DNA from: a bacterium
GTDB taxonomy: Bacteria; Planctomycetota; Planctomycetia; Pirellulales; UBA1268
Reading direction: 5' to 3'
DNA: 35,924 nucleotides
NCBI GenBank assembly: GCA_029978085.1
Contig: JAPOJV010000016.1
Location: forward strand, 1-35,924
Position 1 is the first letter of the stretch, and each line of letters begins with the position of its first letter. Under the pieces are notes generated by a model. That model had not been told where the DNA came from, ran no database searches, and saw only the letters and a list, made by a program, of their open reading frames with translations. The translations under genes were made by a program, and so were the position numbers. Below, one piece after another: positions 10,806 through 13,405 of the stretch.

Positions 10806-11360
10806 ATGGCGCAGCAGCATCGTCCGGTCGTTCACCCCGCCGACTCCCGCCGTGGTTTTCTCGCCAAGGCACTGTCGATCATCACCGGCGGCCTGGCCAC
10901 GCTCGCGCCGGTCGGCGCCGGCGTGTGGGCATTCCTCGATCCGCTGCGGCGGACGAAGGCCGCCGCCTCGTACCTGCCGGTCACCGAACTGGCGGCGATT
11001 CCCGACGACGGCGTGCCCCGGCAGTTTCCCGTGATCGCCGACCGCGTCGATGCCTGGACCGGCTTCGCGGCCGAGCCGATCGGCGCCGTCTACCTGCGGC
11101 GGGCGAAGGGCTCCGAGACGGTGGAGGCGCTCTCCGCCACCTGCCCGCATGCCGGCTGCTTCGTGGAGATGGAGTCGACGGGCAAGTGCTTCCGCTGCCC
11201 GTGCCACAACAGCGAGTTCACGCTCGATGGCGGCATCGTGGCCCCGAGTCCGAGCCCGCGGCCGATGGACGCGCTGGAGTGCCGCGTGGCGAAGAACGGC
11301 GAGGTCGAGGTGAAGTGGCAGAAGTTCCGCGCGGGCGTCGCGGACAAGGTCGAGCAGTGA
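10806..11360 (+). CDS. petC: Rieske [2Fe-2S] protein of a bc-type complex
   Basis: Iron-sulfur subunit that takes an electron from quinol and passes it to a c-type cytochrome. The protein has 184 residues. An N-terminal twin-arginine motif SRRGFLAK (14-21) precedes a hydrophobic anchor (about 22-44), suiting Tat export with a retained membrane helix. Rieske box 1 is CPHAGC (C113, H115, C118) and box 2 is CPCHNS (C131, C133, H134), giving the two Cys and two His cluster ligands and the C118-C133 disulfide pair. A good ribosome site (GGAGGGAGAAGAGG) precedes the ATG. The fused cytochrome b/c gene starts 11 bases after its stop, so the two form one unit. Confidence 0.95.
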   Translation: MAQQHRPVVHPADSRRGFLAKALSIITGGLATLAPVGAGVWAFLDPLRRTKAAASYLPVTELAAIPDDGVPRQFPVIADRVDAWTGFAAEPIGAVYLRRAKGSETVEALSATCPHAGCFVEMESTGKCFRCPCHNSEFTLDGGIVAPSPSPRPMDALECRVAKNGEVEVKWQKFRAGVADKVEQ

Positions 11361-11371
11361 GGGGCGGCACG

Positions 11372-13405
11372 ATGAAGAACGCGACTCAGGGCGACGTGGT
11401 GAAGAAGGGCGTGTTCGGCCGGCTGGCCGACTTCTTTGACGATCGCACCGGCTACCGGGCCCTCATGCACGATGCCCTCTATGAACGTGTCCCCGGCGGC
11501 GCCCGCTGGCGATATGTCTGGGGCAGCACGCTCGTCTTCGCCTTCATGACGCAGGTGATCACGGGGCTCTTTCTCTGGGCCAGCTACTCGGCCAGCGCTC
11601 AGACGGCCTGGGAGAGCGTCTACTACATCCAGCACGAGATGGCCGGCGGCTGGCTGCTCCGTGGCATCCACCACTTCATGGCCCAGGCGATGGTGGTGCT
11701 GCTGGCGCTCCACCTGCTCCAGGTGGTGATCGACGGCGCCTACAAGGCGCCTCGCGAGGTGAACTTCTGGCTCGGGCTGATCCTCATGATGCTCGTGCTC
11801 GGCATGGCGCTCACGGGCTATCTCCTGCCGTGGGACCAGAAGGGCTACTGGGCCACGATCGTGGCCACCAATCTCGCCGGCATCGTGCCGGGCATCGGCC
11901 CGTCGCTGCAGCAGCTCGTGATCGGCGGCAGCGAATACGGCCACCACACGCTCACGCGGTTCTTCGCGCTCCATGCCGGCTTCCTGCCGGGCGCGCTCAT
12001 TGTGATGCTCGTGGTGCACCTGGCGCTCTTCCGCAAGCACGGCCTCCACGCCAAGCAGCCGATCACGAAGCCCGACGCGATGTTCTGGCCCGACCAGGTG
12101 CTCCGCGACGCCGTGGCGATGCTGGCCGTGATGGCCGTCGTGCTCGGCGTGATCCTCGTGCCGGCGCTGAAGGCGATGCTGGCGGGCGAGCCGGTGGACG
12201 TCGGCCATCTCGGCGCCGAGCTCGGCGCCCCGGCCGATCCGTCGCTCCCCTACGCCGCTGCCCGGCCGGAGTGGTACTTCCTGTTTCTGTTCCAGTTCCT
12301 CAAAGTGTTCGAGGGCTGGGGTGCGACGGGCGAGTTCTTGGGCGCGATCGTCGTGCCCGGCCTGATCATGGGGGTGATGTTCCTGATGCCGATCATCGGC
12401 AACTGGAAGCTCGGCCACCGGTTCAACGTCGCCTTCACGCTCGGCATCGTGGCGGGCGCCGGCCTGCTCACGGCCATGGCCCTCAACGAAGACTACTACG
12501 CCGTCTGGGTCGACAAGGCCGCGCTCGCCGACGCCCAGAAGCTCTACGACGAAACTGGCGGCGACGAGGAGAAGCTGGCGGCGGCGCTTGGTGGCGACAA
12601 GGCGAAGATCACCGCGATGGAGGCGAAGTGGGAGAAGCTCGAGAAGATTCGCCACTCGCAGGCCTTTCTCGACGCCTCGAAGCAGGCCAAGCTCGACGCG
12701 GCCCGGGCCATCGAGCTCGCCGGCCGTCCCGAGAAGATCCCGCCGGCCGGCATGCTGGAACTGGTGCGGACCGACGCCAAGAGCCAGGGCCCGCGGCTCT
12801 TCGCCCAGCACTGTGCGAGCTGCCATGCCTACGTCGATCCGCAGGCGCCCGAGGCTGCGAGCGTGCTCGCCAAAGCCTCCGCGGCGAATCTCCATGGCTT
12901 CGGCTCGGCGGCCTGGATGCGCGGCCTGCTCGATCCCGACCAAGTGGCCGGCCCCGCCTACTTCGGGAACACCGCCCACAAGGACGGCGACATGGTGAAC
13001 TTCGTGCAGAACGACCTCACCGACGCCGACACCTGGAAGAAGGACGACATCGAGGCCGTGATCGCCGCCATGGCGGCCGAGGCGGGCCTCCCGGGCGCGA
13101 AGCCCGCGGAGCCGGCCGTGGCCAAGGGCCGGGAACTGATCGCCAGCGACGAGCGGTGCGGCAGCTGCCATCGCTTCCGCGACAACGGCGCCGACCTCGG
13201 CACGGCCTGCGACCTCACCGGCTGGGGCAGCCGCGACTGGCTCGTGGGGATCATCGTCGACCCGACGCACGAGCGGTTCTACGGCGACACCAACGACCGC
13301 ATGCCGAGCTTCGGCAAGGCCGACGAAGGCAGCCTCGCCCCGCTCACCCGTGCCCAGATCGAGCTGATCGCCGACTGGCTCCGCGGCGAGTGGTACCGGC
13401 CGTAG
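11372..13405 (+). CDS. Cytochrome b fused to two c-type haem domains
   Basis: Quinol-oxidising membrane subunit with built-in electron exit, 677 residues. Residues 1 to about 380 form a complete cytochrome b. The first haem-ligand His pair has 13 residues between (HHFMAQAMVVLLALH) and the second has 14 (HAGFLPGALIVMLVVH), the latter as in cytochrome b6. The Qo-site motif PEWY is present (RPEWYFLFLFQF). After further helices comes a charged helical linker (about 385-460), then two covalent haem sites, CASCH (C481-H485) and CGSCH (C596-H600), with RMPSFG near the end as a likely Met axial ligand. The start is ATG at 11372 with GAGGGGCGG before it; an earlier in-frame reading overlaps the Rieske gene. 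The fusion would replace a separate cytochrome c1. Similar fusions are known in several phyla including Planctomycetes. Confidence 0.93.
   Translation: MKNATQGDVVKKGVFGRLADFFDDRTGYRALMHDALYERVPGGARWRYVWGSTLVFAFMTQVITGLFLWASYSASAQTAWESVYYIQHEMAGGWLLRGIHHFMAQAMVVLLALHLLQVVIDGAYKAPREVNFWLGLILMMLVLGMALTGYLLPWDQKGYWATIVATNLAGIVPGIGPSLQQLVIGGSEYGHHTLTRFFALHAGFLPGALIVMLVVHLALFRKHGLHAKQPITKPDAMFWPDQVLRDAVAMLAVMAVVLGVILVPALKAMLAGEPVDVGHLGAELGAPADPSLPYAAARPEWYFLFLFQFLKVFEGWGATGEFLGAIVVPGLIMGVMFLMPIIGNWKLGHRFNVAFTLGIVAGAGLLTAMALNEDYYAVWVDKAALADAQKLYDETGGDEEKLAAALGGDKAKITAMEAKWEKLEKIRHSQAFLDASKQAKLDAARAIELAGRPEKIPPAGMLELVRTDAKSQGPRLFAQHCASCHAYVDPQAPEAASVLAKASAANLHGFGSAAWMRGLLDPDQVAGPAYFGNTAHKDGDMVNFVQNDLTDADTWKKDDIEAVIAAMAAEAGLPGAKPAEPAVAKGRELIASDERCGSCHRFRDNGADLGTACDLTGWGSRDWLVGIIVDPTHERFYGDTNDRMPSFGKADEGSLAPLTRAQIELIADWLRGEWYRP

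Follow-up and report, generated by a model that had tools for sequence, protein, structure and literature searches.

A Rieske protein and a cytochrome b fused to a dihaem cytochrome c form a predicted two-gene bc complex in a planctomycete of the order Pirellulales

The locus considered here lies on a 35,924-nt stretch of DNA (contig JAPOJV010000016.1, positions 1 to 35,924, assembly GCA_029978085.1) from a bacterium of the lineage Planctomycetota; Planctomycetia; Pirellulales; UBA1268, and the whole of this stretch is referred to as the window. On its forward strand, one open frame with a putative ATG start (11372..13405) encodes a 677-residue protein that Pfam, matches to PDB entries and a structural model identify as a cytochrome b fused to a dihaem cytochrome c. 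The gene starts 11 bases after the end of a forward-strand gene (10806..11360) for a 184-residue Rieske iron-sulphur protein (PF00355, 5.1e-9), which has the cluster ligands CPHAGC and CPCH and a sequence, SRRGFLAK, that we take to be a twin-arginine-like (Tat) anchor. The window thus holds a Rieske protein with intact cluster ligands adjoining a cytochrome b, the combination by which we recognize a bc complex. By Pfam, the pair is preceded by a DHH-family gene and an FAD synthetase/riboflavin kinase gene, and is followed on the opposite strand by a Glu/Leu/Phe/Val dehydrogenase gene. The original prediction, made from the DNA alone, proposed a two-polypeptide bc complex with four haem sites on one chain, and both proposals were borne out: the b and c parts share a single frame immediately behind the Rieske gene, and the sites are H100/H114 and H201/H216 in the cytochrome b part together with CxxCH motifs at C481 and C596. 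The gene pairing recurs elsewhere, as a Rieske motif adjoins the fused gene at 135 of the 142 loci listed (129 by the distance rule and 6 with overlapping frames). The remaining seven comprise three loci without room for one and four without a match to the Rieske motif; for one of these four, BLAST gives a Rieske match.

The cytochrome b part (residues 1-374; 11372..12493, forward strand) was delimited by Pfam, PDB matches, alignment of the model and hydropathy. Pfam reported Cytochrome_B (5e-41, residues 46-224) and Cytochrom_B_N_2 (7.4e-40) for the 677-residue protein, and did not report PF00032, the C-terminal half of cytochrome b, at an E-value of 0.001. The best PDB sequence matches are to cytochrome b6 (7r0w_I, 4.6e-41) and then to bc1-type cytochrome b, and the full-length model (pLDDT 92.3, pTM 0.87) aligns to solved cytochromes b such as 8smr_D (Z 32.0, rmsd 3.2, 342 residues). 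The predicted ligands of haem bL are H100 in helix B (11669..11671) and H201 in helix D (11972..11974), and those of haem bH are H114 in helix B (11711..11713) and H216 in helix D (12017..12019), all on the forward strand; this assignment follows the alignment and, in part, a residue numbering that we assume. The second His pair, with 14 residues between its members, aligns without a gap to 7r0w_I and with a one-residue gap to the bc1-type cytochrome b 29ye_B, in agreement with the b6-like spacing originally proposed for it. The Qo motif PEWY is present as P299-E-W-Y302.

The topology of this part would let c haems be carried on the same chain. A scan of the 677-residue protein for hydrophobic segments found seven, the last at residues 351-372, with none after residue 375 and hence no counterpart of the eighth transmembrane helix of bc1-type cytochrome b. 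Given the known orientation of cytochrome b, the seven-helix form has its C-terminus on the outer side of the membrane, where the c haems must be, so that c modules can be joined directly to it; an eighth helix of the bc1 type would reverse the side of the C-terminus. The window system therefore differs from the bc1 complex in that neither this helix nor cytochrome c1 was found in it. It also differs from the b6f complex, in which the b6-like and subunit-IV-like halves are encoded by separate genes, whereas here they form one chain with the c modules. A haem ci as in b6f was considered and rejected because alignment to solved relatives places Val, at residue 49, where the ligating Cys (presumably Cys35 of cytochrome b6) would be expected.

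Two c haem modules make up the C-terminal part on the forward strand. Module 1 (residues 466-575; 12767..13096), identified by Pfam and alignment, contains C481-A-S-C484-H485 and the likely Met ligand M541, and module 2 (residues 576-677; 13097..13402), identified by alignment, contains C596-G-S-C599-H600 and the likely Met ligand M644. For the whole protein, Pfam Cytochrom_C matches at 4.7e-10 with its best stretch at residues 472-555, and PF13442 matches module 1; by profile comparison with hhalign, the two modules are related (probability 98.4%, 26% identity across 88 columns). Foldseek alone returned no match for the C-terminal part at an E-value below 0.001. When the C-terminal model was compared structurally a second time, the top 45 matches aligned 72-106 residues, yet they began at model residue 67-100 and ended at 301-306. 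These matches hint at an exchange of outer helices between the two c modules (model residues ~92-302, corresponding to protein residues ~463-673), perhaps as in CcoP. Tandem c modules are also found in CcoP/FixP, the dihaem subunit of cbb3 oxidases, and 8smr_G and 6xkw_p, which we take from their lengths to be CcoP, span both ends of the dihaem part with weak matches (Z 5.3 and 5.0). In contrast, 3mk7_C aligns to the dihaem part only at an rmsd of 10.6, and the modules may be placed differently.

In an alignment of 65 proteins of the order, the window's included, C481, C484, H485, C596, C599, H600, M644, H100 and H201 are invariant, while M541 and H216 are each present in 64 rows and H114 in 56. 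This alignment left out L011 (identical to the window), L028, L040 and L079 (fragments), L041 (split complex) and L078 (a duplicate of L038), and a second alignment (A2) dropped L054 in addition. Taken with the gene pair and the predicted fold, these sequences, motifs and patterns of conservation make it very probable that the window encodes a two-subunit Rieske/cytochrome b quinol:cytochrome c oxidoreductase with a Q cycle, in which a dihaem tail stands in for cytochrome c1. In such a complex, quinol, most likely menaquinol, would be split at the Qo site that bears the PEWY motif, and one electron would cross the membrane by way of haem bL and then haem bH. The other electron would pass from the Rieske cluster to the c haems, presumably attached at the two CxxCH motifs, and from there to a soluble cytochrome or an oxidase. 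The dihaem modules on the outer C-terminus of cytochrome b would replace cytochrome c1. Two VitK2_biosynth (menaquinone) genes in the genome point to menaquinone as the quinone, and the genome also has a gene for a cytochrome c assembly protein.

The polypeptide that joins the membrane part to the first c haem consists of an insert and a collar, both on the forward strand. The insert (about 54 residues, 375-428; 12494..12655), recognized from a length survey, the model and its composition, is predicted to be helical and contains 11 acidic (D/E) and 9 basic (K/R) residues together with 11 A. The conserved collar (residues 429-480; 12656..12811), recognized from the alignment, has the pattern A-x-R-x-x-x-L-A ... 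G-I-P-x-x-G-A ... L-L-R-x-D ... Q-G-P-x-L-F and runs up to the CxxCH motif. It had been suggested that the charged linker could set the reach of the haem domains and that its length should be surveyed among homologues. Across 68 loci of the order (L041 and L078 left out), the spacing between the Qo motif and the first CxxCH does vary, from 126 to 203 residues (at least 141 in 47 loci, at most 140 in 21). Within the window's family, by contrast, it is nearly constant, being 182 residues in 18 of 19 rows and 186 in the other; the value of 182 recurs in four rows of other families, and still others have 178-203. Of 80 loci from named genomes, four gave no distance and one gave a meaningless value (-43). 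The collar comes almost directly after the Glu/Asp that ends the last helix in shorter forms (127 residues), examples of which are in records titled Verrucomicrobia and Gemmatimonadetes; in the window's family, some 54 residues (375-428) separate the two. A quickly built tree of cytochrome b parts (140 rows), with SH-aLRT as its sole measure of support, places the window in a supported set of 22 rows that are all of the long form; three changes account for the long class and eleven for all three length classes.

It is improbable that the linker is a flexible tether that carries both c haems to an oxidase. The charged and alanine-rich composition of the insert and the range of distances across the order would suit such a tether, but the near-constant distance within the family would not, and the model places helices at residues 382-395, 399-405 and 410-450 with a pLDDT of 94-97 across the insert. 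Since the insert is confidently predicted to be helical and the collar behind it is the same whether or not the insert is present, the insert looks in the model like a one-sided addition, a folded helical hairpin, and not like a lengthened tether, and it would probably serve contacts with a subunit or partner. The role in setting reach that had been attached to the linker is thus not supported.

An alternative concerns the fate of the fused chain after synthesis. FbcH of Bradyrhizobium is a b/c1 product that is cleaved after synthesis, and the resulting c1 has one haem and a C-terminal anchor. The 677-residue protein might likewise be a polyprotein from which cytochrome b and a free dihaem cytochrome are released by cleavage, and b/c1 fusions do exist (PMC4013037). 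This is very unlikely, though, because no stretch within residues 375-677 is hydrophobic or resembles a signal sequence (the highest 19-residue Kyte-Doolittle mean is 0.87), which would leave the cut c part without a membrane anchor, and the collar is both conserved and modelled as folded. It is even harder to credit that the complex is completed by a separate c1-like subunit encoded elsewhere in the genome. Further c cytochromes are indeed available, among them dihaem proteins and a 1493-residue protein with eight CxxCH motifs, but these sit beside their own complexes, and a search of the whole genome with the cytochrome c1 model PF02167 returned nothing over the cut-off (three weak matches, the best at 16.2 bits, E 0.014), the same model being over the cut-off in one of 14 control genomes. 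The absence of a c1 gene near the locus, noted originally with the caveat that a complete c1 elsewhere would count against the proposal, thus extends to the genome as a whole at that cut-off.

The fused complex does not appear to be alone in the cell. The original prediction held that the Rieske and fused genes are the only complex III genes in the run. This is correct for the window's contig, on which profile searches of the genome found one Rieske and one cytochrome b match, and incomplete for the genome, in which PF13631 revealed a second cytochrome b on contig C35. There, one run of genes (L041:2501-15955) encodes a 348-residue Rieske protein, a 257-residue b6-like protein, a 441-residue subunit-IV-like protein, the 1493-residue protein with eight CxxCH motifs, which also has a PDZ match, a dihaem cytochrome, COX2 and COX1. 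Judged from its sequence, this run is predicted to encode a further Rieske/b6-type complex, split over several genes and equipped with an octahaem c, next to an oxidase of the aa3 type, and the fused complex is accordingly one of two in the genome. Of the 146 genomes of the order, 106 have a match to the subunit-IV-like protein if weak hits to fused proteins are included; of the 23 in the family, 22 have one. Contig C141 (L169:2710-10324) holds another haem-copper oxidase set, of cbb3-like character, in which COX1 and FixO are accompanied by genes for a dihaem protein, an E1-E2 ATPase and a member of the DsbD_2 family. The idea that the fused complex is paired with a cbb3 oxidase was considered and rejected for want of an association: within the family, FixO exceeds the cut-off in 4 of 19 genomes with the fused gene and in 1 of 4 lacking it.

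Comparison with known systems places the window complex in familiar company. Cytochrome b chains of the actinobacterial bcc complex (QcrABC) from mycobacteria and corynebacteria match the window model at Z 30.3-32.5; the c part of that complex also carries two c haems, and this dihaem c is a separate subunit. In Bacillus QcrABC, as in the window, a c module is fused behind the three-helix half of cytochrome b, but separate genes encode its b6 and subunit-IV-like parts, and its c module carries a single haem. PMC4013037 describes b/c1 fusions in Bradyrhizobiaceae, some Rhodospirillales and Planctomycetes, which like the window gene combine cytochrome b and a c cytochrome; unlike those fusions, whose c part is called c1 there, the window protein has two CxxCH motifs and no c1 match over the cut-off. 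PMC12954380 describes Kuste3096-3097 of Kuenenia stuttgartiensis, found expressed in proteomics, as a Rieske protein together with a cytochrome b to which a c1 equivalent with two haems is fused, and notes that the genome also has split b6-type complexes with hexa- or octahaem c. Compared by description, Kuste3096-3097 and the window pair come from the same phylum and have the same two-gene plan, with a split b6-type complex in both cases; the Kuenenia split complexes include NAD(P) oxidoreductase subunits, whereas none occurs among the 10 frames of C35 scanned here. The window complex is thus another member of the Kuste3096-3097 type of fused b/dihaem c, a layout already described, and the statement in the original prediction that the arrangement is not new agrees with this precedent (PMC12954380) and with the occurrence of fusions in at least four phyla.

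Some cytochrome b match, the split type included, occurs in 132 of the 146 genomes of the order. In the window's family, 19 of the 23 genomes match the fused type strongly (E at or below 8e-195); these include one (G112) in which the gene is cut by a contig end and one (G124) in which it is present as two frames. In the latter (G124:C46, L040), the two frames overlap with a break near residues 256-263, which may be a frameshift or a real split. The assemblies of the other four family genomes (G096, G108, G128 and G143) have no fused gene, and their matches near 1e-24 are at the level of the split type. A scan of named genomes gave at least 80 loci (from at least 594 pattern matches), and among the matches listed, full or near-full fusions are found in records titled Planctomycetota, Verrucomicrobia, Gemmatimonadetes and Myxococcota or members of these, for example Nannocystis exedens DSM 71 and Singulisphaera sp. 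GP187. Two MAG records titled Candidatus Kuenenia stuttgartiensis (L082 and L084) have fused genes that are 78-81% identical to the window's, with the 182-residue spacing, and the names of these records look wrong. The number of CxxCH motifs is two in most frames (64 of 68 loci of the order, with four in 2, three in 1 and one in 1 at a contig end; 62 of the 80 loci listed from named genomes, with one in 11, four in 3, fifteen in 1 and none in 3). Fused cytochromes b with four CxxCH motifs, in frames of 875-958 residues, occur in the sister family f17 (L073 = L192, L077 = L195, L186, L191 and L197) and in records titled Acidobacteria (L147, L152 and L153). In an Armatimonadota MAG (L143), the fused frame has fifteen CxxCH motifs, the later ones evenly spaced.

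The sister family f17, which belongs to the same order, bears on how much can be read from the fold. In an alignment of 145 rows (L011, L041, L141, L143, L155 and L156 left out), 12 rows lack H114, 4 of these also lack H216, and L126 lacks H216 alone; on the tree, two changes are needed for the loss of H114. A search of 81 f17 genomes gave a match in 70, and the best 30 of the matches (9 of them already in the 65-row alignment) were read, a choice biased towards proteins without bH ligands because the query, L075, itself lacks both. Among these best 30, position 114 is Tyr in 24, Thr in 2 and Phe, Trp, Gln and His in one each, so that H114 is lost in 29, and position 216 is His in 20, Arg in 6, Trp in 3 and Gln in 1, with both bH ligands lost in 9. 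The bL ligands H100 and H201 are His in all 30, and C481, C596 and M644 are likewise kept in all 30 by column (three rows have only one exact CxxCH). Tyr302 of the Qo motif is replaced in 27 (Ala 13, Ser 12, Met 1, Phe 1) and kept in 3, and a Rieske motif is present at 26 of the 30 loci. The loci without H114 are those of L171-L200 (29 of 30) and also L068, L070-L077, L129, L135 and L142.

The f17 genes are under purifying selection, as dN/dS in the cytochrome b part is below 0.35 in 9 of 10 comparisons, dS being saturated in the tenth (L198/L199, both ligands lost). The ratio is ~0.03-0.12 in six comparisons among nine proteins that keep H216, and ~0.33 (L171/L173), 0.12 (L174/L175) and 0.17 (L174/L176) where both ligands are lost; selection is perhaps looser where both are gone. 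A COX1 match is present in 9 of 12 f17 genomes checked and absent from G064, G102 and G110. G064, which is 99% complete and has lost both bH ligands, also has no subunit-IV-like match. Whether f17 proteins form Rieske/cytochrome b complexes without haem bH, with the low-potential branch dismantled and the window protein as the intact form, seems evenly balanced from these sequences. If they do, there would be no Q cycle, and electrons would follow the Rieske-c branch, or bL would be used in some other way. Against this reading, loss of a ligand is not loss of the haem, Tyr can bind haem iron, and H216 is kept in 20 of a biased choice of 30. No paper on such a loss of haem bH was found in the open PMC library. 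Since bH ligands can be lost in a sister family, the fold alone is no guarantee of a Q cycle.

The window system is a clean example of a minimal complex III with two genes, the dihaem tail on cytochrome b serving for cytochrome c1, and in itself it is ordinary. With a fused and a split complex in one cell, it may be asked how their tasks are shared out, and the survey of linker length replaces the idea of a tether with one about an extra helical hairpin that can be tested. If the f17 clade is truly without haem bH, it would provide a natural test of whether such a complex can operate when no Q cycle is possible, and the wider family may in that case matter more than the window complex itself.
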